From Bdellovibrio bacteriovorus (lineage in GTDB: Bacteria > Bdellovibrionota > Bdellovibrionia > Bdellovibrionales > Bdellovibrionaceae), in assembly GCF_001592755.1 (NCBI RefSeq), contig NZ_LUKF01000016.1:434001-498000 (forward strand): 64,000 nucleotides of DNA, given 5' to 3'. Each line of letters starts with the position of its first letter. The first letter of the stretch is position 1. Below, one piece after another: positions 5,146 to 20,443 of this stretch. The position numbers were made by a program, and so were the translations under genes. Below the pieces are notes generated by a model. The model made no database searches and had not been told where the DNA came from. It was given only the letters and a program-made list of their open reading frames with translations.

Positions 5146-6336
5146 TTACGGCAATAAAACGATTTGCGAGCTGATCACCTTACGACCGTCTTTATCGATC
5201 GAGATCGCTTGCGCTAGATAATAGATCCCGTGAACAAGCCCATCCAAGTTCACCGTGTGATCAGTCACTAGATTCGCATCTACAGGAGTATAAATTTCTT
5301 CACCTGTATACACGTTAAGAATTCTCAACTGGCTGTTGGCTGGAAGATTGGTCTTCCAAGTTAAGACCGCCGTTGGAGCCGCCGCAGAGACCACGACGAA
5401 ATCCGACAAAGCTAACTCCACAGGTGGTTCTTCAGGGGGACAAGGGTTCGTTGTTTGCGCAGGCATTTTATAGTTAGCTGCTGCGATCGTCGACCAACCC
5501 AATTGCTCTAAGAACTTCACGGGCAACAATTTCTTTCCATTGTCAGGATTGTAGAAATATTTGTTGGAAGCAACACCACACAACGGATTGCTGTTTTGTT
5601 TCTTCCACGTCTGGGCCTTTTTATGATGTTTCCAGATCATCACATTCGCAATATGGTAGCGTGGCCCCTGATAGTAAAGAATCTTGATCGGAAGTTCGGT
5701 CCCCTTCTTCAATTCTACCGTGCGGAAAGCACAACCCATACGTGTGGAGTGGTCACCATCATTATTAATGATTTCATTCCACTGATTATTTTCTTTCACG
5801 AAAACGCGCGATCCATCGTCAGATAGAGTTGCGAGCTCGTAGTGACCTTCTTTATCTTTGTCAGAAAGTTTTAAGACAGATGTGTATTCGATGGCAAAGT
5901 TCTCAATCAGCTTATTGCCTTGAGCATCCACCAAGAATTCATCATTCACGTTTTTAAAACCCGCCGTAAATGGCGACGTAGGAACATTCACGTCAGCAAA
6001 GTAAAGCTTGGCATCGAGCTTTAAACCTTTGTTGTAATAGTCCATCACCCCTGAAATCTTTTGACCCATCTCTGGAGTTCGCAGAATCAGCTTTCCCAAC
6101 AATCCACTCTCAGGTGTCGTCCCCGCACTTTGAGAAAGCGGAGTACAAACGGTGTTTGCTGGATCTTCAAAAGTTACATTTTCAAGTGGTTTTGAAGCCG
6201 GTGCTCTATTAACACCCGAATAGGAGCATTTAATTTTCTTAAGATGCCCACGTTCATAGCGGATGTCTTTCTTGAACCAGCCTGCTTCGGCAGAAAAGGA
6301 CAATAGCAATGCCATTACTATCAGTGATTTTCCCAT
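5146..6336 (-). CDS. Exported PA14-like protein with Fn3-like C-terminus
   Basis: A 396-residue protein with a signal peptide (MGKSLIVMALLLSFSAEA). Residues of about 140-235 fit a PA14-type beta-barrel: an aromatic strand, GHYELATLSDDGSRVFV, and later KILYYQGPRYHIANVMIW. PA14 domains usually bind glycans or other ligands on cell surfaces. After a Pro/Glu linker, residues of about 300-396 look like a fibronectin III-type fold (ALSDFVVVSAAAPTAVLTW). Neighbours on the same strand encode other exported proteins, including a fibre. A role in surface or prey-wall recognition is inference. Confidence 0.72.
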   Translation of the reverse strand: MGKSLIVMALLLSFSAEAGWFKKDIRYERGHLKKIKCSYSGVNRAPASKPLENVTFEDPANTVCTPLSQSAGTTPESGLLGKLILRTPEMGQKISGVMDYYNKGLKLDAKLYFADVNVPTSPFTAGFKNVNDEFLVDAQGNKLIENFAIEYTSVLKLSDKDKEGHYELATLSDDGSRVFVKENNQWNEIINNDGDHSTRMGCAFRTVELKKGTELPIKILYYQGPRYHIANVMIWKHHKKAQTWKKQNSNPLCGVASNKYFYNPDNGKKLLPVKFLEQLGWSTIAAANYKMPAQTTNPCPPEEPPVELALSDFVVVSAAAPTAVLTWKTNLPANSQLRILNVYTGEEIYTPVDANLVTDHTVNLDGLVHGIYYLAQAISIDKDGRKVISSQIVLLP

Positions 6337-6455: not shown

Positions 6456-9326
6456 CTAGAGCCCTAGTTTCTGTTTGATCATTTCGAGATCTTTTTTAAG
6501 AGCTGCATTTTCTTTTTCTAAGTTCTGCATGCGTTCTTCATTAACGACTTTAGCTTCTTCTAAAGAAGCGATCTTACGCTCTAGCGCTACAATCTGTGAT
6601 TCTTGGGCTTTGCACATGCCGTAGAGTTCGTGCGTGCTTTCGATCAGTGGGGCGACGAGTTTAGAGTAAGCGACGGCCTTATATCCATCCGCGCCTGTAG
6701 TCACCGCTTCAGGATATACCGCTTCCACTTCTTGTGCGATCACACCAATATCCTGTCCAGCTTGAAAAGACTTATTTGGAAAACTTGCGCGGTCCCAGAC
6801 AAAACTGACACCTCGCAATTTTAATATTTTTTCCAAAGCAGCTGACAAAACGTGGATATCTTTTTTATATCGTCGGTCCGACGAGCTCGTCCACGTGTGA
6901 GTGCCGCCCGCGTTTCCATTTACATATAAAGAATATCCCGTAAATACTGTGGAATTAATCCCTACTCCTCCACCCATGTAGGGATTCGACAAGCCGTTCG
7001 ATGGAAGTAGGGATAGTACAGGAGTCCCGAGTGAATCATGCTTAAACGAAAGTGTTCCCAAGGGTCCCCAAGTAGAAGTAGAAGTCGATCCGGCTTGACC
7101 GATATTCCACGCGCTGAGGTTGGAGCCGCTAGAGTTGTAGATTCGTAATCCCGTTGCCGTGGTATTCGCCGAAGTCAAACCAAGTGGAGTTGCTGACGCA
7201 TCATCAGAGATCTGTACTCTAAAGCCAGGGATTGTAGTTCCAATCCCCACTTTACCGTCATTCGAAATTCTAATGCCCGAACTTCCTGTCGTGGTCCCGT
7301 TTTTGGTCACGACTAAGTCCAAAGCCATACCTTGTGCGGTCGCCGTGTGATTTTCAGTTGCGGAAATACTTACACCAGCATAGCCGACAGGATTGATTGC
7401 ATTGGCGCCAAAGAATGCTGCAATACCTTGCCCACTCAGCGGATGAGTCGGAGTCGCCAAAGTTCCTCGAGCAGTGTATCCATAAAATGCAGAATAGTGA
7501 TCAGGGTCCGTCGATACTGTCGTCGCACCGATAATTGACGAAGTTCCATCGCGCGTAACATCTAACGACGTCCTTGGACTACTTGTTCCAATGCCTACGT
7601 GACCGGCATTCGTAACGGTGACTCTGTTCAATCCTGCAGTCTCAAAATGCAGTGAATAATTGTCATTAGTTCCAATCGTGAGCGGCGCAGAAAATGTGTT
7701 CCCGTCTTTAACGACAGCGCCCGTGCTTCCAATATTCGCACAAGTCGCCATACCGCTGGCATCAAACGAAACTAACTGTCCCACGGTACAACTGAAACCA
7801 TTTACCTGAGCCCCAGTTCCATTCGAGATCAAAAGTCTATTCGCAGGTAACGAGGCGCTTCCCGTCCCGCCCTGTGCAACAGGCAGAGTTCCAGTCACAT
7901 CGGCAAAACTCAACGCCATCGGTGACCAGTTTGTTCCGTTGTATTTCAATATCTGTCCATTGGAAGGCATCGTCGCTGCGATATCACGTCCCTGCAGTTT
8001 CACCACTGAAGGATTTGGATAAGTGCCTGACAAATCACCGCCGGCAGTCCCCGTCGCACCAGTAGAAATTCCTGAACTTAAAAGCTCCCAGCTTGAACCA
8101 CTATCACGATAAATTTTTTGCGTATCTGTCGTCACGTACAGGCGACCGGCAGTTCCCGCTGTGGGCTTTCCTGTATCCGTACCTGATTGAATACTTGGAG
8201 TGCCGCCCGAATTTTTAACTGCATCAGTGATACCATAACCGGCAAGCGTTGTCGGCGTTCCACTTGTGATTTGCGACCAAGGAAGTCCTGGAATATCTGA
8301 CGCAATCAAACCTCCGCCTGAAGTCACGCGACCTTTTCCATCCACGGTCACTTTGGCGTATGTGCCAGCCGTTCCCACTGAATTCAAAGTTAAAATACCA
8401 TTCGTCGCAAGCGAGGCATCACCAGTCAAGGGGACTGCCATTGCTTTATTGCTGCCATCACCAACAAATATATTTCCTGCAGGCAGAGCTCCGGAAAGTT
8501 TATTATTAAAAGTATTCCAGTCACCCGTGCTTAGATAACCGCTTTCCGTTCCACTTGCTTGTGGAATAGAAATCTGAGGCGTCGTCGTTGGTGTCGTCAC
8601 ATTCAGAGGAGCCAAAGCCGTTACATTCGTGACGGTTCCTGTGCCCCCACCACCGGTCGCAGAGATCGTAATTGAACCCGCACCACTCGTGATGTTAATA
8701 CCGGTACCCGCATTTAAAACGCCGGATTGATAAACAGAGCCATTCCCAATCAAGATACTTCCATTAGCGGGAGCCGCCGTCGGGAAAATATTTAGAATAG
8801 AATCAAGAGTTGTATAACGAGCAAAAAGACTATCCACGTTCGCTTGAGTCGTGGTCGCGTTGACGTTCACAAAATCAGAGGCCTGCTTATCACCCAAACG
8901 CTGTGCCTGAATTGCATAAGGGACAGAAGTGATTGTCACGTCAGGAGTTAAAACTGTGGCCCCGACAGTGATGCGCAATGAACGAGACGATGAACTTCCT
9001 GCGGCGACGGGTGATGAACCTTCGCAGTTTACGGTCCCGCTTTGCGCAAAGATTCGCTCTAAAGTGTTCGTCGTTGAGTCGGTTCTATTTCCGGTACCAA
9101 CGATCACGCTGAACTGACCTACGGAACCTGGAGTCACCGTTTGAGTTTCACGATACAAAACACAAGATCCGCTTTGCAAAACTTCAAAGGTCACCGTTTG
9201 CGCCGTCGTAATGGGAGTGTCTGTGGCATCCGTCAGAATACCTTCGTACGTCAACATCGGGCCAGGACCTGTCGCAGCCACGGCTTGAACACTTAAAGAA
9301 AGAAGAATCGCCAAGATCGACTTCAT
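6456..9326 (-). CDS. Tail-fibre-like surface protein with S74 chaperone domain
   Basis: A 956-residue exported protein with a signal peptide ending near AVAATG. The N-terminal domain begins MLTYEGILTD. A long Gly/Thr/Ser/Asn-rich shaft follows with fibre-type segments (GTVTNVTALAPL, LSGTYPNPSV, VAQGGTGSASL, two GIGT repeats). Near residue 815 is SSDRRYKKDI, the start of the intramolecular chaperone domain of peptidase family S74. Ser816 and Lys821 have the spacing of the self-cleavage dyad of phage endosialidase fibres. The last 60 residues are a coiled coil, as expected for a trimer. Bdellovibrio is known to carry such mosaic trimeric fibres for prey contact. Its start overlaps the lipoprotein stop by ATGA. 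Confidence 0.88.
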   Translation of the reverse strand: MKSILAILLSLSVQAVAATGPGPMLTYEGILTDATDTPITTAQTVTFEVLQSGSCVLYRETQTVTPGSVGQFSVIVGTGNRTDSTTNTLERIFAQSGTVNCEGSSPVAAGSSSSRSLRITVGATVLTPDVTITSVPYAIQAQRLGDKQASDFVNVNATTTQANVDSLFARYTTLDSILNIFPTAAPANGSILIGNGSVYQSGVLNAGTGINITSGAGSITISATGGGGTGTVTNVTALAPLNVTTPTTTPQISIPQASGTESGYLSTGDWNTFNNKLSGALPAGNIFVGDGSNKAMAVPLTGDASLATNGILTLNSVGTAGTYAKVTVDGKGRVTSGGGLIASDIPGLPWSQITSGTPTTLAGYGITDAVKNSGGTPSIQSGTDTGKPTAGTAGRLYVTTDTQKIYRDSGSSWELLSSGISTGATGTAGGDLSGTYPNPSVVKLQGRDIAATMPSNGQILKYNGTNWSPMALSFADVTGTLPVAQGGTGSASLPANRLLISNGTGAQVNGFSCTVGQLVSFDASGMATCANIGSTGAVVKDGNTFSAPLTIGTNDNYSLHFETAGLNRVTVTNAGHVGIGTSSPRTSLDVTRDGTSSIIGATTVSTDPDHYSAFYGYTARGTLATPTHPLSGQGIAAFFGANAINPVGYAGVSISATENHTATAQGMALDLVVTKNGTTTGSSGIRISNDGKVGIGTTIPGFRVQISDDASATPLGLTSANTTATGLRIYNSSGSNLSAWNIGQAGSTSTSTWGPLGTLSFKHDSLGTPVLSLLPSNGLSNPYMGGGVGINSTVFTGYSLYVNGNAGGTHTWTSSSDRRYKKDIHVLSAALEKILKLRGVSFVWDRASFPNKSFQAGQDIGVIAQEVEAVYPEAVTTGADGYKAVAYSKLVAPLIESTHELYGMCKAQESQIVALERKIASLEEAKVVNEERMQNLEKENAALKKDLEMIKQKLGL

Positions 9327-9886
9327 TGAGTGATCCTTCCGCGAATCTTAAATCCTCCCCCTGAAGCCACATGCTGATCCTGAGCACGCACGCGACCACG
9401 CAGATGCAAGCCCGTTCCGGTTTGCACTTGTGATCCCGCTAAAATCTCATGAGACATTGGCGAGGAAGGGACATACTTCACGTTCACGGTGCGATAGATA
9501 AAATCACCAATGCGCGGTTGCGCACGGAATTTCACCGACACCGTATCCCCGTTTGAAAAAGTCATCGCATCCCAGGGAGCTTTGGAATTAGAAAGAGTGA
9601 TTTCAAACTTTCCATTTTCGCAGGTATTCTTGGCCGTCGACTGATAATCCGCTGGATTTACCCACGTCGTGCCACCATCAAAGCTCATCTGTACTTCGCC
9701 TACGAAAGCGGAGCACTCCGCCTGCAAAGACACGGAATTCATGCTCGCGGTGATCACGTGATTGTTGGTGAAATTGAAACCGTCAATAGAACGCAAGATA
9801 GAAACTGTCGGAGTCGTATCCGTACAGCCCGCCATCAAAAGAAAGAGGCCCAAAATGTTGATCTTGCTGACGTTCTTATTTTTCAT
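9323..9886 (-). CDS. Lipoprotein paired with the fibre protein
   Basis: A 187-residue lipoprotein. A basic N-terminus and hydrophobic stretch lead to the lipobox LMAGC (Cys21). The mature part has beta-rich segments, including VQMSFDGGTTW, that suggest a small Ig-like domain. Its stop overlaps the fibre gene start by four bases, so the two are translated together, and the lipoprotein could anchor or help assemble the fibre at the envelope. Its SD GAGGGG at 9890-9895 (minus strand) can pair with CCCCTC just upstream. Confidence 0.8.
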   Translation of the reverse strand: MKNKNVSKINILGLFLLMAGCTDTTPTVSILRSIDGFNFTNNHVITASMNSVSLQAECSAFVGEVQMSFDGGTTWVNPADYQSTAKNTCENGKFEITLSNSKAPWDAMTFSNGDTVSVKFRAQPRIGDFIYRTVNVKYVPSSPMSHEILAGSQVQTGTGLHLRGRVRAQDQHVASGGGFKIRGRITQ

Positions 9887-9958: not shown

Positions 9959-11056
9959 CTACTTTTTGCGGAAAATATGAAACTGATAAACCCCGGTGCC
10001 ATCTTTGCTTTGGGCCCAAAGATTACGATCTGACAATGGCTCCCAGTTTTTCGTATCAATAGCGGTGGGCGCTCTCATAAACGAGCGGATGACCATCTGA
10101 CTTTGGCTTCGAGTCTCAGGGGAAAGCTTTTGTAAAATCTGATTGGCGTCAGGCTCTGACAGGTAAGAAATCGTGTCGGACAACGAGATAAAATCATAAG
10201 CATGCTTAGGAAGCTCTTCCAAAAGATTCCCATGAAGATAACGGACTTGAGTGCTGGACTTTTTGACAGCCTCGACGGTTTCAAAGTGTGCTTCTAACGG
10301 CAAACCTTCCTCATAAGCAATTCGGCCTAAAAACAGAATTTGCATGAAGTAGTTTTTACGAACCAACTGAGTTCTAAAAATGCGATCGAACTCTTCCATA
10401 ATAAATTGAGAAGGCGCCCGCTGCTCAGTTCTGTGCTCGGACTTCCCGCTGAAATGTCCCTTGTATAAGAACTTATTGAAAACATACTCGCTGGCGGCAA
10501 CTTTGATAAAACTATTCCAACGAATTTTCGGCCAATGCTTTTCATAGAGTTCGATTTGTTCTTCCAAGCTTTGGGCTGCAAAAACTTTACTGAAATCACA
10601 TTGCAAGACCTCACGGAAAAGATATCCCAATTTTTGAAAGTGAGATTCCCAACGACCCAATAAAATAAAACCTTTAGGCTTCCATCCCGACACGCGCTCG
10701 TTCCAATAGTTCTTTGCGTCCTGGGACAAAGTTAATCTTTTATAGAGCGCTTCGCGATCATCCCCTTTATCGCTGCCCGCTTGCAGGGCTCCACGATATC
10801 CCATAAAGAAAAGATACTCTTCATATGTTAACGTCTTCATGGCTTGCAAACGCAGTTCACAAAGATAAAGCTGACTGACTGACATATCGATCACATCAAG
10901 ATACTTCGGATTTTTCGCCATCAAAGGCAAACAGCGTGCACCAGAGCCGGCGATACTGAACACTCTTTCCACCCCATTTGGCAGAAGATCATACTCGATA
11001 CGCGTGTCTTCATTGGACAAGGTGTAATTCAGATCAGAAAAATATTCTTTTGCCAT
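9959..11056 (-). CDS. BtaA/DUF3419-like aminocarboxypropyl transferase
   Basis: A 365-residue cytoplasmic protein resembling the DUF3419 family, whose founder BtaA moves the 3-amino-3-carboxypropyl group of S-adenosylmethionine onto diacylglycerol in betaine-lipid synthesis. The N-terminus NYTLSNEDTRIEYDLL matches the family's opening. VFSIAGSGARCLPLM (residues 33-46) is the SAM-binding loop, followed by DVIDMSVSQLYLCELRL. A second conserved part is near YDFISLSDTISYLS. The SD AGGAG precedes ATG 11056, 9 nt after the barrel gene. It closes an operon of lipid-related genes. No BtaB methyltransferase is present, so the product need not be a betaine lipid. Confidence 0.72.
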   Translation of the reverse strand: MAKEYFSDLNYTLSNEDTRIEYDLLPNGVERVFSIAGSGARCLPLMAKNPKYLDVIDMSVSQLYLCELRLQAMKTLTYEEYLFFMGYRGALQAGSDKGDDREALYKRLTLSQDAKNYWNERVSGWKPKGFILLGRWESHFQKLGYLFREVLQCDFSKVFAAQSLEEQIELYEKHWPKIRWNSFIKVAASEYVFNKFLYKGHFSGKSEHRTEQRAPSQFIMEEFDRIFRTQLVRKNYFMQILFLGRIAYEEGLPLEAHFETVEAVKKSSTQVRYLHGNLLEELPKHAYDFISLSDTISYLSEPDANQILQKLSPETRSQSQMVIRSFMRAPTAIDTKNWEPLSDRNLWAQSKDGTGVYQFHIFRKK

Positions 11057-11065
11057 GAAAGCTCC

Positions 11066-12127
11066 TTAAAACGCTAAATTGCCACTTAATTCTAAACGTA
11101 AACCAACCACGGTGCCACCGGTAATCTCTTCATAAATCTTATATAGACCACTGACGCCCGCATAATTCTGCACAAAGCCCGACACCGTAAAATAATCTGT
11201 AATATTGTAACCGTAACTGAAACTTCCGAAATTGCTTTCTGCATCCGGGTTATAGAATGCCTGAAGCTGCACGTCGTGACGGTTCGGGTTCCACTGTCCC
11301 GTCAGGTAATAAGAGGTTTCGTAAGCCAAGCCGTTCGGGACTAAAGTTTCATATCGACTAACTTGAGTCAGCAAGATCCAGTTCCCCCAAAAGATATCAC
11401 AACCCAAGGTCGCAAACTTTCGGTCTTGTTGATTTTCCAACGCCTTACGATCATGAACGTATCCCAATTCAAATTTCGGAACGGCATTTTCAAACGCATA
11501 GTTCCCCGTAACGCCATAGTGATCGGTGGTAAGGACTTGCGCAGATAAAGCGGAAAATGCAAAGTTCCCCCAATTCCACTTCACGCGTCCACCAAAGCTG
11601 GTGTTCTCTTCGACATCGGGTTGAGGAATCGGCACAGGGTAATAAGACTCGGCAAGCTCCCCCACACCCACAAACTCCAAAGAATAAGTTTCCCGGGCAT
11701 ACGAGAAAACAACTCCGGTAGAATGAGTGAGCTGGTCGGCCAAGGGATCAAAGAACAAGCGGTTCCATCGGCGTCCCGTCCACACATCCAGAGAGGGAAC
11801 AGTCCAACTTTCGCTCCAACGCAAAGCCTGCCGTCCTACCCGCACATAAAAAGAATCGAGGTTGAATTCAAAGTAAGCTTCTTGAAGATATCCATGGGAA
11901 GGTGATCTGCGCACGAAGGCCTGATCTTCGTTTCCTTCAAACTCACCAAAGCCTTCGACGAAAATTCCGAAAGGCCCGACTTTCGAGTTCAACTTCCCTT
12001 TGACGATCAGGCGATTGGCCAACTCTTCTTCTGTGCCTTGAATATATTCATAGCGAGGCGCGACCGTAAGGTCCGCCATCGCGACGGCTGAATTTAAAAG
12101 AAGGATCAGAAGAAGGCCAAATCTCAC
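11066..12127 (-). CDS. Outer-membrane beta-barrel protein (lipid operon)
   Basis: A 353-residue protein with a signal peptide (ending AVAMA) and alternating aromatic/hydrophilic strands throughout, ending in an aromatic residue (SGNLAF), as outer-membrane barrels do. RVGRQALRWSESWTVPSLDVW recalls DUF1302-like or porin-type barrels that accompany lipid transporters. It starts with GTG 12127, which shares a base with the stop of the LolA-like gene (TAGTG), so the pair is translationally coupled. This suggests a periplasmic carrier handing cargo to an outer-membrane protein. The family assignment is tentative. Confidence 0.72.
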   Translation of the reverse strand: MRFGLLLILLLNSAVAMADLTVAPRYEYIQGTEEELANRLIVKGKLNSKVGPFGIFVEGFGEFEGNEDQAFVRRSPSHGYLQEAYFEFNLDSFYVRVGRQALRWSESWTVPSLDVWTGRRWNRLFFDPLADQLTHSTGVVFSYARETYSLEFVGVGELAESYYPVPIPQPDVEENTSFGGRVKWNWGNFAFSALSAQVLTTDHYGVTGNYAFENAVPKFELGYVHDRKALENQQDRKFATLGCDIFWGNWILLTQVSRYETLVPNGLAYETSYYLTGQWNPNRHDVQLQAFYNPDAESNFGSFSYGYNITDYFTVSGFVQNYAGVSGLYKIYEEITGGTVVGLRLELSGNLAF

Positions 12128-12825
12128 TACTTCATGCTTTCCATGTTACGAACGGTAAAAAAGGATTCACCGAAAGTCTTTTTACCCATGGCAAGGATGC
12201 GCACGAAGCTGACTTGTTTATTTGTATCTTCGATTTTCAAAGTCGTCGGGCGAGTCGCGCCGGCGATACTTTTATAGTCTTCAAAAAACGCTCTTTTAAG
12301 AACGGTTTTTCCGTTCAATCCCAAATATTCCGCACGCAAGGGTTCGAAGTTCCCTTTTTTCAGCCAAAGACGAATCCACGCATAAGTCAGATTGTCTTTG
12401 TTGCCTTTAAGAAGAAGCTGCACTTCTTTACCGTTGTCGGCTTCTTTCGTCACATCGTAATCGCCGTACCAGCGAGTGCGCGAGATATCGCCATTAGAAA
12501 CTTGACCTGAAAGTTTTTGTGCCAAGGACAAACGCATCGAGCGCTTCAAGTTAGGAACATAAGCGTGGAAGTCACGATCCAACATCAACATATTGCGACC
12601 CTTGTCCCGAGCCGGTTCTTTAGTAACGATCAAGGTTTTATCCTGCCCCTGCAAAAAAACTTGGAATACAGAATTGTTTTCCGGAGTCTCTACACGGATT
12701 TTCATTTCATAAGATTCTGCCGGATTGCGAATATTGTCGGCCTTTTTAACCCACTCTGCGGGATTTTCTTCCGCGACCGCATGAACTGCAAATACAAAGG
12801 TGCACAAGGCTAAAAGTGTCTTCAT
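12127..12825 (-). CDS. LolA-like outer-membrane lipid/lipoprotein carrier
   Basis: A 232-residue exported protein with a signal peptide ending AVA. The mature part matches the family annotated as outer membrane lipoprotein-sorting protein: VKKADNIRNPAESYEMKIRV, then GRNMLMLDRDFHAYVPNLKRSMRLS, and YDVTKEADNGKEVQLLLKG. The fold is the open half-barrel of LolA/LolB with a hydrophobic groove. It has no lipobox, so it should be soluble in the periplasm. AGGAG stands 4 nt before ATG 12825. Its neighbours are lipid enzymes, so it may carry a lipid rather than a lipoprotein. Confidence 0.8.
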   Translation of the reverse strand: MKTLLALCTFVFAVHAVAEENPAEWVKKADNIRNPAESYEMKIRVETPENNSVFQVFLQGQDKTLIVTKEPARDKGRNMLMLDRDFHAYVPNLKRSMRLSLAQKLSGQVSNGDISRTRWYGDYDVTKEADNGKEVQLLLKGNKDNLTYAWIRLWLKKGNFEPLRAEYLGLNGKTVLKRAFFEDYKSIAGATRPTTLKIEDTNKQVSFVRILAMGKKTFGESFFTVRNMESMK

Positions 12826-12833
12826 GACATCTC

Positions 12834-14966
12834 CTATTTATTTCTTTTTGAAAGAGCCAGTTGTCGTGTGAGCTCAATTTCCTTATCCGTGATAATTCCT
12901 GTATGACCTTGAATCGCCGCCAATTGAACTCCGTGGCGACGGGCCATTCTATAGATCTGCTTAACCTTATTCCACTCAATATCGCGGCCCATGGTAAAGG
13001 CCTCGAACTGTCCTTCCAAAGTCAGCAATGCCGTTTCCGCTAAGCACGCATAAACCGCTTTACCAGGAAGCCCCATATCAAAATCAATCTCGACCGGTCC
13101 TGGTAAAATCACTTCACCCGATTCGATGATTAAAACATCCGGTCTTTTCTTCGCATCTTCAATGTCGAAATCCAAAGGGCGGGAACAATCACAGACTACT
13201 GCGCCTGGTTTCAACAACATCACGTCCACAATTTTGTGATCAAACGCGGAAGTGGCCGTCACAAGGACATCCGCCTGCGGAGCAAGCTCGTTGGCATCTG
13301 TAGCAATTGTGATTTCACAACCTGGAGCCATTTTCTGAATCGTCTCTTTCAGTTCTTGCAGACGATTCATACGAGGCGCTACCAGACACAGTTTCTTAAA
13401 GACCAGCGAAAGAAGTTTTGCAGAAACTTGCCCAATAGAACCTGTGGCACCAATCACCATCGCCATGCCGTCAACCATGCCTGTCTGCGGATCTTGATTC
13501 AAAAGACGCATTTTTTTAACCACGTCATTTAAGGCCCACAGTGTCGCTGAAGCACTTAAACTATTTCCCGTTGTCACCGGAATGGGACTGTTCTGATTGA
13601 TAGTGATCCCTTGGTCGCCCACGATTTTCGTGTAAGCGCCAAGGCCAATCATCTTCGCTCCGCGATTGGCGGCATCGTAACAGATGCCTTCAATCTTGCG
13701 ATAAACGACTTCGGGATCCGTGTTTTTTAAAACTTTCGGTGTTGCTGGTAAGGCATAGATAATACCATTGATCTCTTTACCCGATTCTTCACTGATGACA
13801 TGTTTCACGTGCCCATGAACAAAAGGCGGAACTTTCGAAGCCATTTTATCAAAAGAATCATTCCATTCTTTCGGCATGTACTTCAGTGCAGAAAGCCCCG
13901 GCACACGCATAAAATCGCTATGAGATAAGGCATGAATCACAAACGCAAAATCCGGTTCTTTTTCACTTAAGATTTTATTCTTAACGACGTTGATACCTTT
14001 AGAAATCTTCGCTTGCGTGGAAGTATTGCGAGTCATCACATACTTGCGCGCCACCTGACGGATTTCAGTATCCTCCGTCATCAGTTGCTCCCACTCTTCA
14101 ATGCTTAAAGGCGCCGTGCGGTTGTGCACCAAACGCAAAGTCGCATCCAAAACAGAATAATTCATGTAAGGATGCACTCGATAATTTTCCGGGAACAAAT
14201 TAATAATACTACGAGGATTGTACTTCTTTACTTCCGCTTCCATCAAAGGATGCGAAGACCAAATGACCAGATCTTTCCCGCGTACAAACTCCGTAGCGGC
14301 TGAGTCGAAAAGTAAAAGAAACGGCAAGTCACAGAAAACATACTGAACATTTTCAACCTGTGCCGCCAAAGAGGAGCGACTCATCTTTTGAAGTTTTGTT
14401 TCCGCCAACGGAGTGTTGTTACGAAGATCTTTGAAGTTTGCGACATTCAAAACCAGTTTTGAAAGCGTCATCAAACCTGGGAAAGGTTGAATCAACCAAG
14501 GTACGCCCAATAAAGAATAGGCGTCACCGATGTAAACGGATTTGCGATAGCGATGACGAATGTATTCTTCCAGCTCGGCGCAAAACACCGCCGATGGGAA
14601 AAAGATCCCACCTTCAGGCTGAATCTTCCCCGATTCAATTTTTTTAACTAAAGAATTAATGTTCGCGATTTCACGAAGCCCCGTTCCATCACATAAAGGT
14701 ACTGGCGAAGGAATCCCCATGATTTCTAAATACTGGCGATGAACATAGCTTTTTTGTTCAAGCTTAATTACCGGAGGCAGGCTTGTTAAAGCAAAGGCAT
14801 CCACTTGATTGCGAAGCGTTTCAATCAGACGGCGCACGCCATCCACAGAGAAATTCACACTAAAGCGCTGCACTTCAAAGTGACTGCCGTTAAATTCAAA
14901 CTCATAAGCCGCATCCCAGTGCGGTCGGCCGAAACTAATTTCGGCGATTCGATACGAATGCTTCAT
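12834..14966 (-). CDS. Acyl-ACP-reductase-like enzyme with unknown N-terminal half
   Basis: From about residue 340 the protein lines up with the cyanobacterial long-chain acyl-ACP reductase (fatty aldehyde former). The pattern F-I-H-x2-S-x2-H, then GLGAYTKIV, TTGNSLSA, the nucleotide loop VIGATGSIG, and finally VYACLAETALL fit; the Cys of that last motif corresponds to the catalytic cysteine of the family. The N-terminal 340 residues are not recognised and are absent from the cyanobacterial enzyme. ATG 14966 is preferred because TGGAG precedes it by 5 nt; an upstream ATG at 14990 has no SD. The gene overlaps the SDR gene by about 30 nt, which implies coupling. The product is probably a fatty aldehyde, inferred. 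Confidence 0.75.
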   Translation of the reverse strand: MKHSYRIAEISFGRPHWDAAYEFEFNGSHFEVQRFSVNFSVDGVRRLIETLRNQVDAFALTSLPPVIKLEQKSYVHRQYLEIMGIPSPVPLCDGTGLREIANINSLVKKIESGKIQPEGGIFFPSAVFCAELEEYIRHRYRKSVYIGDAYSLLGVPWLIQPFPGLMTLSKLVLNVANFKDLRNNTPLAETKLQKMSRSSLAAQVENVQYVFCDLPFLLLFDSAATEFVRGKDLVIWSSHPLMEAEVKKYNPRSIINLFPENYRVHPYMNYSVLDATLRLVHNRTAPLSIEEWEQLMTEDTEIRQVARKYVMTRNTSTQAKISKGINVVKNKILSEKEPDFAFVIHALSHSDFMRVPGLSALKYMPKEWNDSFDKMASKVPPFVHGHVKHVISEESGKEINGIIYALPATPKVLKNTDPEVVYRKIEGICYDAANRGAKMIGLGAYTKIVGDQGITINQNSPIPVTTGNSLSASATLWALNDVVKKMRLLNQDPQTGMVDGMAMVIGATGSIGQVSAKLLSLVFKKLCLVAPRMNRLQELKETIQKMAPGCEITIATDANELAPQADVLVTATSAFDHKIVDVMLLKPGAVVCDCSRPLDFDIEDAKKRPDVLIIESGEVILPGPVEIDFDMGLPGKAVYACLAETALLTLEGQFEAFTMGRDIEWNKVKQIYRMARRHGVQLAAIQGHTGIITDKEIELTRQLALSKRNK

Positions 14967-15960
14967 ACCCGCTCCAGAATGCTTGTTCATATTCTTTAAA
15001 CTCAGGACACCAAGAAGGGCCTAGAACTTTGCGCGTCGCCTCGGTGTCGTAAGTTGGAAAGTTCATTAAATAAAAAAGTTCTTCTTCAGGAAAGCGCGCC
15101 ACCAGACTTGAAACTTTCATCATCAAAGGTTTTGGCACTTTGCTGACAAGGGTGATGCCTTTATTAGGAATCGCCAGGCGCTTTAATGTGGCCGTGTAAA
15201 GTTCTTTTGCCGTCAAACCGTACGTCGGCGTAACATGAAAGCTTTTATAGCCTTCAGGTTTTTCGGTCAGAGCCCATTCGCAAAATTTCACAATGGCTTC
15301 TGCGGCTTTATCCACAGGAACAATCGGCATCTTCACCGATTCATTTCCTGGCAATGGCAATGCCGTTGGAAGTGATTCAATCAAAGGACGGATTTTTTTA
15401 AAAGACTCTGGAGCGTGATAAGGTCCATCGATACGTTCGATGCGGCCTTTCTTAGTATCCCCGACAAGCACTCCCAAACGCAGATTGATTCGTGATTTGA
15501 TATTCTTCACCGGCCAATTGTGCAAAACCTGTTCACCCAACGCTTTCGAATCAGAATAAGCATCCGGGAAGGCTTTAGAAAAATTAAGATCGTAAGGTTT
15601 CACCGTCGAAAGGGTTGAGTTGATAGCCGCCGCGACAGTGCTGGTATTAAGGAAGTACGGAATTTCTAAAGCCTCAGCGACTTTCAGTGCAATTCCCATC
15701 GCCGAAATATTATGTTGAAAACAATCAACATAAGATCCTTTCAGATCATAAAGTCCTGCCATGTGTACGATGATGGAATATTTTTTTGAGCGAAGAGTTT
15801 CAAAATTAAGATCTGCATTCCAATGAGTCAGATCGCCCTGGACTTCTGTCTGGCCTGAACGTGACAGGACGTCCACTTCGAATTTTTCACGAAGAAGTGG
15901 AACGACCAATTTTCCGAGAAAGCCAGTGCCCCCGGTGACGAGGATACGAGGTCTGCTCAC
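14935..15960 (-). CDS. Extended SDR / fatty-acyl-reductase-like NAD(P) oxidoreductase
   Basis: A 341-residue Rossmann protein. The dinucleotide loop is VTGGTGFLG (residues 8-16). The active-site pair Y135-x3-K139 is in YSDSK, preceded by NTSTVAA. The overall plan fits extended short-chain dehydrogenases of the male-sterility/fatty-acyl-reductase type or a 3-beta-HSD-like epimerase. GTG 15960 is chosen because TGGAGG lies 5 nt upstream. A longer frame to 16068 would run inside the lipid kinase gene. It sits between a lipid kinase and the acyl-reductase-like gene, so reduction of an acyl or keto lipid is the likely job. The substrate is unknown. Confidence 0.82.
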   Translation of the reverse strand: MSRPRILVTGGTGFLGKLVVPLLREKFEVDVLSRSGQTEVQGDLTHWNADLNFETLRSKKYSIIVHMAGLYDLKGSYVDCFQHNISAMGIALKVAEALEIPYFLNTSTVAAAINSTLSTVKPYDLNFSKAFPDAYSDSKALGEQVLHNWPVKNIKSRINLRLGVLVGDTKKGRIERIDGPYHAPESFKKIRPLIESLPTALPLPGNESVKMPIVPVDKAAEAIVKFCEWALTEKPEGYKSFHVTPTYGLTAKELYTATLKRLAIPNKGITLVSKVPKPLMMKVSSLVARFPEEELFYLMNFPTYDTEATRKVLGPSWCPEFKEYEQAFWSGYEAFVSNRRN

Positions 15961-15979
15961 GGAGCCTCCAGAAATATCA

Positions 15980-16978
15980 TTATTGTCGGACCATGATAGG
16001 AAGTCCGCGATGTAAGCAGCGGATTGAAATTTCCTGCACGTCCTTAAGAAGAATCTCGCCATCCCCAAAGAAAGTCAAAGAGCGGCGGGGGTTCTGGCTC
16101 TTTAGTCTGAACTCTCGAAGTTCGAAAGTTTTAAAGGCATTGAATTTTTCTAAATTACCTTTACGGATTCGCAAAGCAGCCATTGCATGTTGCTGGGCCG
16201 TTTTAGTTTCGGATAAAAGTAAGTTCACGGTGCCATCGGTATTGGACGTGTAAGGAGCCGGTAAAAAGCTCGCGCCAATACTTTGCTGATTGCTGACTAG
16301 AACGATGGGTGAATTTGTCTCGACGTTAACCTTGCCCGGAATTTCAATTTCAAGACCCCAGCCATCGGGATTCCAAGTGCGAATCGCTTCGGCGGTCATC
16401 ATCGAATAAACACCGGGTCCCATTTTCTTTACCGCGTAATAACTTTTTTCTGCAAGATAGCGGAAGGCTTTTGCTGATTTGGGACAAGTCGAAAGAGTGC
16501 GAAGATGATTTCTAAATTTATTTGCGAGCTCCGCAGCCACTGCCGGAAGACCTAAGCCTCCGTTAGTCAACATATAAGCTTTTTGTTCGGGAGAACTAAC
16601 CTCGATTACATCGATATTCTTAACGACACCTTCAAAGATATTGCGAACCGCGCGATCAATGCGGTGAGAGACTCCAATTTCATGAGCTAAATCGTTCGCG
16701 GTTCCCGAACGTACGATAGTAATAGGTGGAATCTTACTTAAGTCATCATACTTCATTAAACATTGAAGCGCGACATTGATGGTACCATCACCACCACAGA
16801 TAATGATGGCGTTGGTTTTATGAGACATCTCTTCATTAAGGAAATCCGCCATCTCCGTCAGCGTCTGCGGACGGCTGAAACGAAGGTCACAGCGAAACAA
16901 AGCTTCGCGTACTTTCGCTTCAATCAGATCTGCATTCACAGACCCGGCTTTGGAATTTACCAGAACGGATACTCTCAT
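15980..16978 (-). CDS. Diacylglycerol-kinase-family lipid kinase
   Basis: A 332-residue enzyme of the DAGK catalytic family (DgkB/YegS/sphingosine kinase type), which phosphorylates a lipid hydroxyl with ATP. VLVNSKAGS at the N-terminus, the nucleotide motif GGDGTINV (residues 62-69) and VRSGTANDLAHEIG follow the family order. FFGDGEILLKD near the C-terminus is the conserved final loop. ATG 16978 is chosen because it begins the conserved sequence and has the SD GAGGA 9 nt upstream. An upstream start at 17038 would add 20 unrelated residues. It appears to be the first gene of the lipid operon. Confidence 0.9.
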   Translation of the reverse strand: MRVSVLVNSKAGSVNADLIEAKVREALFRCDLRFSRPQTLTEMADFLNEEMSHKTNAIIICGGDGTINVALQCLMKYDDLSKIPPITIVRSGTANDLAHEIGVSHRIDRAVRNIFEGVVKNIDVIEVSSPEQKAYMLTNGGLGLPAVAAELANKFRNHLRTLSTCPKSAKAFRYLAEKSYYAVKKMGPGVYSMMTAEAIRTWNPDGWGLEIEIPGKVNVETNSPIVLVSNQQSIGASFLPAPYTSNTDGTVNLLLSETKTAQQHAMAALRIRKGNLEKFNAFKTFELREFRLKSQNPRRSLTFFGDGEILLKDVQEISIRCLHRGLPIMVRQ

Positions 16979-17218
16979 AAAATTTAGTCCTCGGTGGAAC
17001 ACAAAAGCAATTCTTATACCTAAGGTTCTTTGAGTCATGAGCGCTAAAATAGAACTGGCACTCTAGAAGATGACTAAAAACGTCACTTTGGCACCGTTGT
17101 ACAGAGAGTGGACACAATAAGCAAGAGTCAGGATGTCACCGACTCATATATCTAATAGATGGACACTGTGGACCCACATTTGAAACACGTAATGAAAAAT
17201 CAGAGAAAACTCAAAATA

Positions 17219-17247
17219 AAAAATCCCGCAATGATCGCGGGATTTTT
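17219..17247 (-). terminator. Intrinsic terminator after the ABC permease gene
   Basis: AAAAATCCCGC pairs with GCGGGATTTTT around a 7-nt loop, 24 nt past the permease stop. It separates the AMIN/barrel/ABC unit (17271-20443) from the lipid enzyme unit (9959-16978). Confidence 0.88.
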
Positions 17248-17270
17248 CAAAGATAGATCTTCTTGGAAAT

Positions 17271-18479
17271 CTATGTCGAACGAAGAAGCTCTGGGATCGA
17301 CTTCTTAAGAAGTTTCACTGTCGGATAAAGACTTGCTAACACCGTTGCAATCATCGGCAAAAGAAGAGCCTGCACGTAGTGCGGAGCCATAATATCTAAG
17401 TACACGATAAACTGACGCGTGATCCCCGGTGCCGGCGGCATGGGAATTCCTCCGCGCAGTAACGTCTTGTCGATGAGGACCGCCAAGCAGATTCCTAAAA
17501 AGCCCCCCAAAGTTCCTAACAAGCTATTTTCAATAAGCAGGATACGGAAAAGGCGCGAGCGTTTTTCGCCGTTGGCGCGAAGGGCACCCATCTCTCCGGC
17601 TCTCTCTAAAAGACCGACAGAGATCACGTTGAAAATACCCATCGCCACGATCACCAGAATAATAGAGCGAATGAATGCAAACTGCGCATTCAAGAAATCG
17701 ACAGAGTTCTGATAATAGTTTTTGTCTAAGATTTCAAAAGGAATGGCTTCGACGTTGGAGTTCGCATCGTGAATGTCTTTTTCAACTTGTGGCCAAGCTT
17801 CCACTCCCTTTGTCGCTAAAGAAAACATTTCGATACGATTGGTATCTAAAAGCTGATGAGCTTGCTTCAGGTCCACGCGATAAAAAGAGTCATCAATCAC
17901 TTTCTTACCGGTAAAGAAAATGCCTGACACTTTGAGATCAGCGCCATTCAATTGGTTATTCACGGTTTGAGTTAATAACGTGACCGTATCACCGACTTTA
18001 GCGTCTAAGCTTTCGGCCAAACCCTTACCCAAGATCACTTCATCGACACTTTGTAAGTTGCCGCCGGAAATGAAATTCATGTCAGTAAAAAACGCGTTTT
18101 CTCTTTCGGGAATAACACCCTCCCCTTTACCACCTAAGGTGATTCCGCCTTTGACGATAAAAGAATAGAAAGAAACACGAGGAAAGACTTGAGTCACTGA
18201 CGATGAGGAACGAATTTGTTTTTCGATCTCTTCCGGATTTTCAAACCAAGCCTTCCAAGGAGTTTCATGTACTTTGCCGAAATAGTTTTTCGGAAACACT
18301 TGTCCATAGCCGTAATATCCATGAATGACGTTTTCACGGTACTGATTCATCACACCCGAATTAAAGCCTTGATAAATCAAAAGGCCCGCGGCACCAAGCG
18401 CGACGGTACAAAGGCTGGCCAAAGTTCGGCGAGGATTTCTAAAAAGATTGCGCCAAGCAATTTTAATCAGCTCAAACAT
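17271..18479 (-). CDS. ABC transporter permease (FtsX/MacB/LolE type)
   Basis: A 402-residue inner-membrane protein. One membrane helix near the N-terminus (LASLCTVALGAAGLLIYQGF) is followed by a large periplasmic domain of about 230 residues (MacB_PCD). Three C-terminal helices form the FtsX domain (SIILVIVAMGIFNVISVGLLERAGEMGALRANG across the first). This 1+3 layout belongs to the type VII ABC family, including LolCE and MacB, which pull lipoproteins or other amphiphiles out of the inner membrane. Its ATG overlaps the ATPase stop (TAATG). Confidence 0.9.
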   Translation of the reverse strand: MFELIKIAWRNLFRNPRRTLASLCTVALGAAGLLIYQGFNSGVMNQYRENVIHGYYGYGQVFPKNYFGKVHETPWKAWFENPEEIEKQIRSSSSVTQVFPRVSFYSFIVKGGITLGGKGEGVIPERENAFFTDMNFISGGNLQSVDEVILGKGLAESLDAKVGDTVTLLTQTVNNQLNGADLKVSGIFFTGKKVIDDSFYRVDLKQAHQLLDTNRIEMFSLATKGVEAWPQVEKDIHDANSNVEAIPFEILDKNYYQNSVDFLNAQFAFIRSIILVIVAMGIFNVISVGLLERAGEMGALRANGEKRSRLFRILLIENSLLGTLGGFLGICLAVLIDKTLLRGGIPMPPAPGITRQFIVYLDIMAPHYVQALLLPMIATVLASLYPTVKLLKKSIPELLRST

Positions 18480-19159
18480 TAGCGACTCTCCTGGATGCGA
18501 CCATCTTTCATCGGATAAACAGACTTAGCAAAGCTCACAAGATGCGAATCATGCGTAGAAAAAATGAAGCTGGTGTTTTCGGCTTTTTGCAGTTCCTTAA
18601 AAGCATTGATGGTTTTTTCTGCGGTGACCGAATCCAGATTCGCCGTCGGTTCATCTGCTAAAACCACGACCGGTTTTTTAGCAATCGCGCGGGCAATGGC
18701 GACGCGCTGACGTTGTCCACCCGAAAGCTCCAGAGGTTTTTTCTTGGCATGATCTGCCAATCCCAAAAGGTCTAAGGTTTCCAGCGCCGTTTTCTGAGCC
18801 TCGGCGTGATTATAGCCCAAGGAAGGAAGAAAATAAGACGTATTTTCTAACACCGTCAAAGTCGGAATCAGATAAAAAGATTGAAAGATGAATCCGACTT
18901 TATGCAAACGAACTTGTTCTTTTTCACTTTCTTCAAGACGAGTCACGTCTTCACCAGCGAATTCGATATGGCCATTCGAAGGAGTGTCGATCAATCCTAA
19001 CAGATTCAGCAACGTCGTCTTTCCAGTCCCACTCGGGCCTACAATACAAGTGAAGCAGCCCTTTTCCAACTCCAGATCGATGCCTTTAAGAACAGGAACC
19101 TGTTGTTTATTCCAAAGATAAGAGTACTCAAGCCCACGAAGACGATACAGTGCACTCAT
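18479..19159 (-). CDS. ABC transporter ATP-binding protein (LolD/MacB type)
   Basis: A 226-residue ATPase with Walker A GPSGTGKTT (residues 41-49), the signature LSGGQRQRVAIARA, Walker B VVVLADEP and a switch histidine in FSTHD. Size and sequence fit the LolD-like group that serves FtsX-type permeases. It is joined to its permease by a one-base overlap and sits 12 nt after a barrel gene. Together with the LolA-like protein of the next operon, it would supply the inner-membrane engine of a Lol-like route. Confidence 0.95.
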   Translation of the reverse strand: MSALYRLRGLEYSYLWNKQQVPVLKGIDLELEKGCFTCIVGPSGTGKTTLLNLLGLIDTPSNGHIEFAGEDVTRLEESEKEQVRLHKVGFIFQSFYLIPTLTVLENTSYFLPSLGYNHAEAQKTALETLDLLGLADHAKKKPLELSGGQRQRVAIARAIAKKPVVVLADEPTANLDSVTAEKTINAFKELQKAENTSFIFSTHDSHLVSFAKSVYPMKDGRIQESR

Positions 19160-19171
19160 GCCGGTGATTCC

Positions 19172-19918
19172 TTACATGTAAAAGCGAAAACCCAAAGAGA
19201 TAAAACCGCCCGAAAAATCCAGCTCGCGCTGTTCCCCGGATGTATTTAGGACCGCGTCTCCACTGCTTTTCGCACCAGAAAACGTTGTGACATCTTTCGA
19301 GTATTTTAAATTATCTATTTTTAGTTGACGATAGCCGAACTCAACAAGAATGGTTGTCGTGTCTGACAAATTACCTTCATAACCCAAAGAAGCTTGCAAA
19401 GAAGTTCCCGAACCTTTGGACTCGGCCGTGTGATCGGCGACACCTGGGAACGCTGTTTGCCCATCCGCAGTTAAAGTGTATGCATTTTTCATCGTGACAC
19501 TGGCAAGGCCTGCGGTCGCAGAAATGAAGGAACGATAACTTGCTGTACTTTGCAAATTAACTTCAACGCCCACCTTTGGAACATATCCTAATATCTGACT
19601 GTTCGCCGAATACAAATCGGCAGTTCCATTATTCGCGGTCGAATCCAAAGTGGAAGGTTTTAAAATTTCAAAACCAAAGCGGAAATTCAAGTAGCGAACT
19701 GAATACAGAAAACCAAATTCGCCGGAGTAGTTGTAATTCACTCCCCCGCTGTAGTTGATGCCAGAGCTGGCTTCGCCATCCAGCCCTTCCGTCCCGATAG
19801 CCGAACCTCCCCCTGAAACCAGGAAGTAGGCCGCGAAAGTTTCTTTTTGAATATTGAACACTCGTGCTTGAGCCGTGCTCGTTAAAAGCAAAAGCGGTAA
19901 GAGCCAGAACTTCATCAC
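19172..19918 (-). CDS. Small outer-membrane beta-barrel protein
   Basis: A 248-residue exported protein with a signal peptide ending TAQA. Alternating strands (FLYSVRYLNFRFGFEI, TILVEFGYRQLKIDN) and a C-terminus ISLGFRFYM ending near an aromatic residue fit an 8-12 strand barrel. It lies between the AMIN-like gene (3 nt before) and the ABC ATPase gene, so it may be the outer-membrane end of that transporter. No specific family is recognised. Confidence 0.7.
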   Translation of the reverse strand: MMKFWLLPLLLLTSTAQARVFNIQKETFAAYFLVSGGGSAIGTEGLDGEASSGINYSGGVNYNYSGEFGFLYSVRYLNFRFGFEILKPSTLDSTANNGTADLYSANSQILGYVPKVGVEVNLQSTASYRSFISATAGLASVTMKNAYTLTADGQTAFPGVADHTAESKGSGTSLQASLGYEGNLSDTTTILVEFGYRQLKIDNLKYSKDVTTFSGAKSSGDAVLNTSGEQRELDFSGGFISLGFRFYM

Positions 19919-19921
19919 GGT

Positions 19922-20443
19922 CTATTCCGTAATCAGATCGATAACGACTTTGCTTGTCGTCTTGTTGCCAGCCACCTGATAAACGCGCACTTTTGTATCT
20001 TTCTTAAGATCCAAAGTCAGATTCAAAGAACTGTCGATCGGATCCAGACTCATCGATGTTTTCGTCACGGCCATTGAGTTTTTCATCAATCCCGAAAGAC
20101 GAGTTTGATCAATGTTCGCATTCGGCATCTGGGAAAAATCAATCACCAAACGCGAAGGATTTTTTTTCAATTCCGCAAAATAATAACCTGGAAGTCCCTT
20201 GATCGTACCGCCATTCAAATCGCCGATATCCATCACGATACGCTCTACTTTTTTCTTTGTATCCGCCGTGCGACGAACATCCATCAAAGTGAAACCCGTG
20301 CCGGCAATTCCACCGAAACTGACACCTTGACCTTGAAGAATTTTAGAAACCGGTTTTGCCTTTTGCGCGGGAACTGCGGCAACTGCAGGTACGGCCAACA
20401 TAACGGCCCAAGAGAAAGCAAAAACACATCCGATGTTTTTCAT
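19922..20443 (-). CDS. Exported AMIN-domain-like protein
   Basis: A 173-residue exported protein with a signal peptide (ending AVAA). The mature part resembles an AMIN domain: IVMDIGDLNGGTIKGL, SRLVIDFSQM and LNLTLDLKKDTKVRVYQV. AMIN domains target periplasmic proteins to peptidoglycan or to secretin complexes. ATG 20443 is chosen because AAGGAG lies 6 nt before it and the signal peptide begins there; a frame opening at 20680 would add 79 unlikely residues. It is the first gene of a four-gene unit ending with the ABC permease. Confidence 0.78.
   Translation of the reverse strand: MKNIGCVFAFSWAVMLAVPAVAAVPAQKAKPVSKILQGQGVSFGGIAGTGFTLMDVRRTADTKKKVERIVMDIGDLNGGTIKGLPGYYFAELKKNPSRLVIDFSQMPNANIDQTRLSGLMKNSMAVTKTSMSLDPIDSSLNLTLDLKKDTKVRVYQVAGNKTTSKVVIDLITE

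Follow-up and report, generated by a model that had tools for sequence, protein, structure and literature searches.

Clusters for aryl polyenes (APEs) offer a precedent for LolA-like proteins in lipid export: the genes for a specialised lipid are clustered with those for a LolA-like chaperone (ApeL), an inner-membrane transporter and an acyl-acyl carrier protein (ACP) synthetase, and the product is located in the outer membrane (PMC8253772). Here we describe a locus of Bdellovibrio bacteriovorus that appears analogous to the APE clusters, with different enzymes. It lies in a 64,000-nucleotide (nt) stretch of the host genome, G000 (the full stretch is called the window, and coordinates are window positions unless another locus is named). 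Eight minus-strand genes form a mobile module, which probably encodes half of a specialised-lipid pathway together with a dedicated Lol-like exporter, the other half being supplied by a second operon. The product is likely an undescribed surface lipid of predatory bacteria.

APE clusters have ketosynthases and dehydratases, an RND transporter and a LolB-like protein, whereas the present system has an FtsX/LolD ABC pair, a DUF1302-like barrel, a thioester reductase, and BtaA-like and UbiA-like enzymes. Neither the module nor the genes identified in the second operon include a ketosynthase/dehydratase/ACP set of the APE type. A preliminary description of this DNA knew of no described system with this combination; none was found in searches of an open-access library, which is not proof of absence.

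A module gained or lost as a block

The preliminary description had joined ten consecutive minus-strand genes, not all of which belong to one unit. Among 24 Bdellovibrio genomes, orthologues of the ftsX gene (71–100% identity) occur in 16, the other eight having only partial paralogues of 36% identity or less; the gene for a 353-amino-acid (aa) barrel is found in the same 16 and in none of the same eight, and orthologues of a diacylglycerol kinase-type (DAGK) gene (57–100% identity) are confined to the same 16 genomes. The reductase, btaA-like and lolA-like genes, as well as the UbiA-like gene of the second operon, follow the same split (15 of 23) among the members of the genus in a sample of 290 Bdellovibrionota genomes. 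(In the same-genus genome G246, which agrees by coordinates with the B. bacteriovorus kdesi record L039, the reductase is 85% identical to that of the window.) Because of this shared pattern of presence and absence, the unit is the run of eight co-inherited genes lolD-ftsX-DAGK-SDR-reductase-lolA-like-barrel353-btaA at 9959–19159, SDR being a short-chain dehydrogenase/reductase. The genus split is cleaner evidence than the phylum counts given below, and may itself reflect few events.

The other two of the ten genes, both on the minus strand, encode a 248-aa barrel (19172–19918) and an AMIN-like secreted protein (19922–20443). The barrel gene and a gene for an M3 peptidase are each present, close together, in all 24 genomes of the genus, and AMIN precedes the barrel in all nine loci that were read without the module at the site (L112–L120); eight of these nine genomes carry no module anywhere, and the ninth (G166) has it elsewhere. 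Since both AMIN and the 248-aa barrel persist where the module is absent, they are resident neighbours and were ruled out as members. Their family assignments are also less firm: whereas the BtaA-like, LolA-like, reductase, SDR, DAGK, FtsX and LolD assignments of the preliminary description hold, the Pfam matches of the barrel (1.2e-4) and of AMIN (0.005) lie below cut-offs.

An empty site is seen in genome G260 (L113), where the order is AMIN, 248-aa barrel, p187 (the next gene beyond btaA) and the S74-chaperone protein, with no module between. The similarity of its DNA to the window stops at 19172, exactly where the gene for the 248-aa barrel has its stop codon, and restarts inside the p187 gene. 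In G166 and G193 the module is found at a different site and with a different internal order. From the empty site and the different location it follows that the module moves as a block, and within Bdellovibrio it is gained or lost as such.

A gene for a small protein (9323–9886) and one for a 956-aa fibre-like protein with a C-terminal S74 chaperone domain (6456–9326, minus strand; PF13884, E 6.6e-17) flank the module, and both are shared with the empty-site genome. The fibre-like gene is adjoined by that for a 396-aa protein with a PA14 domain (5146–6336, minus strand; PF07691, E 1.2e-6).

All ten minus-strand open reading frames (ORFs) initially described are present, and their arrangement is not due to chance, since it is conserved in other genomes. 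The tight spacing that had been reported is borne out: lolD and ftsX overlap by 1 nt, as do the lolA-like gene and the 353-aa barrel gene, SDR and reductase overlap by about 32 nt, and the remaining gaps within units are 3–19 nt. Most of the ten genes have a plausible ribosome-binding site, and better-placed starts were found for the reductase (14966) and DAGK (16978). An intrinsic terminator previously placed at 17219–17247 was recovered in a pattern scan at 17217–17249 (minus strand; 15 pairs and a T-rich tail), between the ftsX and DAGK genes and thus between two transcription units.

Synthesis enzymes and the second operon

The DAGK protein (15980–16978, minus strand; listed ORF start 17038) falls among the diacylglycerol kinase/YegS lipid kinases by its DAGK_cat domain (E 4.7e-21) and its GGDGT motif, which is kept in all 38 aligned sequences. 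The SDR (14935–15960, minus strand, GTG start) is of the NAD_binding_4 (fatty-acyl reductase-like) type (PF07993, E 1.1e-16), with YxxxK in 40 of 40 and GxxGx[LI]G in 38 of 40 aligned sequences.

The two-domain acyl-thioester reductase (12834–14966, minus strand; 718-aa ORF) has a C-terminal half homologous to PigE, TamH and the cyanobacterial acyl-ACP reductase (AAR). It matches the NCBIfam profiles for PigE (1.9e-50) and AAR (3e-17), and in the PDB the PigE chain 4ppm (E 1.5e-40) and the AAR 6jzu (1.1e-17). Its C649 (numbered on the 718-aa ORF), invariant among 38 sequences, aligns with Cys296 of PigE, the counterpart of Cys294 in AAR (PMC8341465). In the NADPH loop (514–520), six residues are invariant (G514, A515, T516, G517, I519 and G520). 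Domain homology, catalytic Cys and loop are thus all found, but membership of the curated equivalogs was rejected (62.9 bits against a cut-off of 449.7 for AcACP_reductase, and 172 against 850 for PigE), and we regard the protein as a relative rather than a member of these groups. Unlike PigE and TamH, it has no aminotransferase domain. There is instead an N-terminal domain of about 340 aa, for which profile searches of Pfam and the PDB gave no match; stand-alone relatives of this domain show no pattern among their neighbour genes. A structure of the reductase predicted from four sequences had a mean predicted local distance difference test (pLDDT) score of 33.5 and was not used. Outside the phylum, one single-sequence scan of a genome collection reached few relatives; a metagenome-assembled genome of Desulfobacteraceae (L040, 9056–11440) carries a two-domain reductase relative alone, without other module genes.

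The last gene of the module (9959–11056, minus strand) encodes a BtaA-like enzyme of the DUF3419 family, predicted to transfer a 3-amino-3-carboxypropyl group from S-adenosylmethionine (SAM). Its PF11899 match is strong and full-length, spanning residues 3–364 of 365 (E 7.1e-60). BtaA converts diacylglycerol (DAG) and SAM to DAG-homoserine (PMC3972451), and the locus might therefore be an ordinary homoserine or betaine lipid pathway (diacylglyceryl homoserine or diacylglyceryl trimethylhomoserine) for phosphate saving, with unrelated neighbours. This is very unlikely. An enzyme that uses DAG does not need the reductase, SDR and kinase, yet these are its constant company here, and the reductase co-occurs with the btaA-like gene almost perfectly. 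Moreover, the neighbourhoods contain no gene recognised as btaB-like (no genome-wide search for BtaB was made).

The window locus is only part of the system. A second conserved set, overlooked in the preliminary description, encodes a formyltransferase-like enzyme, an alpha/beta hydrolase, an AMP-ligase (PRK09274, OleC-related), a UbiA-like protein, a large enzyme of the pyruvate phosphate dikinase (PPDK) type and sometimes a GNAT protein. In G000 it forms one operon on another contig (C20, about 84818–91500), with the hydrolase and AMP-ligase fused into a protein of 802 aa. At locus L122, from a distant relative, both halves and the transport genes make up a single co-directional run of thirteen genes (DAGK, SDR, reductase, btaA, formyltransferase, hydrolase, AMP-ligase, UbiA, phosphotransferase, lolD, ftsX, lolA-like and barrel), and L123, from a second one, has the first twelve in identical order.

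The hydrolase part of the fusion contains GHSWGG, a motif for a Ser nucleophile; the nucleophile of the OleB hydrolase is an Asp. An OleB/OleC olefin pathway was rejected on this difference, and no OleA was recognised in the neighbourhoods. In the UbiA-like protein (L090, 6819–13501, minus strand, from contig C20 of G000), the first Asp-rich motif is kept as FDEIKDYEVD, and the second is seemingly replaced by EFARKTF; the change suggests that the substrate may be unusual. The PPDK-type enzyme has an ATP-grasp domain first, a long middle domain and a C-terminal His swivel domain with the motif SHxA[IV]. This is the domain order of rifampin phosphotransferase and PigC, and the identity of phosphoenolpyruvate (PEP) synthase, the NCBIfam label for the subgroup, was dismissed accordingly; enzymes of the rifampin phosphotransferase type are often misnamed PEP synthase (PMC4844700).

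Might the product be something other than a membrane lipid? A secreted or cell-bound natural product derived from fatty acids (a pigment, signal or antibiotic in the style of prodiginines or tambjamines) would fit a reductase that is closest to PigE and a large enzyme of the PigC/RedH-like type (E 2.5e-105). Related clusters in the phylum also fuse the reductase to a class-III aminotransferase, as in PigE and TamH (PMC8341465, PMC9594044), beside phosphotransferase-type, UbiA and Lol-like genes. On the other hand, the lipid kinase, BtaA-like enzyme, LolA-like carrier and outer-membrane barrel suit a lipid better, and no bipyrrole, polyketide synthase or non-ribosomal peptide synthetase genes were recognised in the conserved neighbourhoods, so that we consider a natural product possible but unlikely. 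The fusions are found in L092 (4261–18471) and L096 (3749–9880), adjoining phosphotransferase-type and UbiA-like genes; L092 also has a CarS-like gene (CDP-archaeol synthase family), a P450 gene and Lol-like genes (FtsX, LolD and LolA-like). The fusions and the CarS-like gene support the view that these clusters share a step of aldehyde formation and that the product resembles a lipid.

A sphingolipid is another candidate, since sphingophosphonolipids are known from a strain named Bdellovibrio stolpii (Bacteriovorax stolpii), which uses a serine palmitoyltransferase to make them (PMC6148460); DAGK would then be a ceramide kinase and the SDR a keto-reductase. However, among the genes of the module, those of the second operon and the conserved neighbours, none was recognised as coding for a serine palmitoyltransferase, and the thioester reductase and BtaA would be left without an evident role, making such a pathway extremely improbable.

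Transport genes

The module begins with the gene for a LolD-like ABC ATPase (18479–19159, minus strand; TIGR02211, E 3.5e-61), whose P-loop is kept in 18 of 18 aligned relatives, followed by that for an FtsX/LolCE-like permease (17271–18479, minus strand; FtsX PF02687, E 4e-16, and MacB_PCD). The LolA-like periplasmic carrier (12127–12825, minus strand; LolA_like PF17131, E 2.6e-30) and the 353-aa predicted outer-membrane barrel (11066–12127, minus strand) are encoded further on. The barrel has no Pfam family of its own by profile search. It is homologous to a barrel of about 400 aa that comes after the lolA-like gene in L122 and five other loci (hhalign probability 98.6%, E 9.7e-16); one of these six matches DUF1302 (2.7e-10), and the 353-aa protein thus has DUF1302-like relatives in the corresponding position of other clusters.

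By profile, the permease, ATPase and carrier belong to the families of the LolCDE-LolA pathway, and they could form a second lipoprotein-sorting pathway that stands beside the enzymes by chance. However, the module has a single permease, and both equivalog cut-offs are missed (206.5 bits against 307.8 for LolD, and about 85–86 against 362 for LolCE). Elsewhere, the genome encodes a Pfam LolA and two LolC/E candidates with higher scores (255 and 212 bits, though these too fall short of the LolCE cut-off), which makes the ABC pair and carrier of the module additional; a canonical Lol pathway was dismissed for the module on these scores and separate candidates. The transport genes also lie in the synthesis run in distant families, and in the genus they are absent exactly with the enzymes. 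A chance association with lipoprotein sorting is therefore highly improbable. The lolD-like gene is linked to the reductase in several families, and lolA-like orthologues, found only in module genomes within the genus, are close to btaA-like genes in other families.

Co-occurrence across the phylum and the proposed pathway

Among the 290 Bdellovibrionota genomes, the reductase (main matches) is found in 89 and a BtaA-like protein (at least about 120 bits) in 99: 87 have both, two the reductase alone, 12 BtaA alone and 189 neither. (These sets were transcribed by hand from match tables.) The Fisher value is extreme, but the genomes are not independent. In 43 neighbourhoods, the reductase is accompanied by SDR in 40, DAGK in 38 and btaA in 32. 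A LolA-like protein of at least 150 bits occurs in 41 genomes, 38 of which have the reductase, and its gene lies within about 12 kb of btaA in the genomes compared by coordinates. Co-occurrence, proposed in the preliminary description as a check, is thus strongly positive for eight of the ten genes. The joint synthesis and export locus envisaged there holds up in its linkage in several families, twice as one co-directional run, though not in its inclusion of AMIN and the 248-aa barrel, nor as the entire system.

Pairwise distances of the reductase correlate with those of SDR, DAGK, BtaA, FtsX, LolD and LolA-like proteins (Pearson 0.94–0.97), and values among the module proteins are 0.88–0.98 overall. 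PPDK and UbiA likewise agree with one another (0.92).

Several points weigh against a lipid pathway with its own exporter. As many as 51 of the 89 reductase genomes have no LolA-like match of at least 150 bits, and many relatives, mostly from one family, have no transport genes that were found beside the synthesis genes, so the exporter is either not universal or diverged. The details also vary: in some clusters the reductase gene is immediately followed by those for a lactonase-like protein and a P450, and btaA lies further off. The product may be a soluble secreted metabolite instead of a lipid. The distance correlations have no control for species history, and the high values partly reflect shared ancestry. 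PPDK (0.61) and UbiA (0.43) correlate weakly with the reductase, and this contrast with the module proteins suggests that each half may have had its own history of exchange, although the loci covered are also different for the UbiA and PPDK sets. In L063 (5629–7850) and L068, the lactonase-like protein is of the metallo-beta-lactamase type and btaA lies several kilobases beyond.

How might the lipid be made? Substrates, sequence of steps, product and transport direction are all inferred from gene families and motifs. The retained catalytic Cys, NADPH loop, YxxxK, GGDGT and swivel His, together with BtaA chemistry, suggest that the acyl chain is reduced, that intermediates are phosphorylated and that an aminocarboxypropyl group is present. 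The PigE/AAR-like domain would convert a fatty acyl thioester to an aldehyde, which the SDR would probably reduce to an alcohol, while the AMP-ligase of the second operon would activate a carboxylate for the pathway. Lipid intermediates may be phosphorylated by the DAGK-type and rifampin phosphotransferase-type enzymes, and the UbiA-like membrane enzyme would couple the chain to an acceptor. With SAM as donor, the BtaA-like enzyme would add a 3-amino-3-carboxypropyl (homoseryl) group, and this group may be formylated by the formyltransferase-like enzyme. Finally, FtsX-LolD would pull the lipid out of the inner membrane and load it onto the LolA-like carrier, for delivery to the DUF1302-like barrel at the outer membrane.

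A more specific scheme, in which the chain mimics a prenyl group, seems improbable. Reductase and SDR would form an alcohol from an acyl (perhaps 2-enoyl) thioester, the two kinase families would phosphorylate it once or twice, to the phosphate or diphosphate, and the chain would then be transferred by the UbiA-like enzyme in the manner of a prenyl group. The outcome would be an ether-type lipid bearing a homoseryl head, placed by the Lol-like relay in the outer membrane of predatory bacteria.

A specialised-lipid pathway with a dedicated Lol-like exporter would bring synthesis and transport together in one set of thirteen functions, spread across a phylum of predators and subject to block gain and loss in Bdellovibrio. 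It leads one to predict a class of lipid not described so far, with a route of its own to the outer membrane. The natural pairs of strains with and without the module would allow comparisons of lipidomics and predation, and the system may serve as a model for Lol-type parts that serve lipids rather than lipoproteins.

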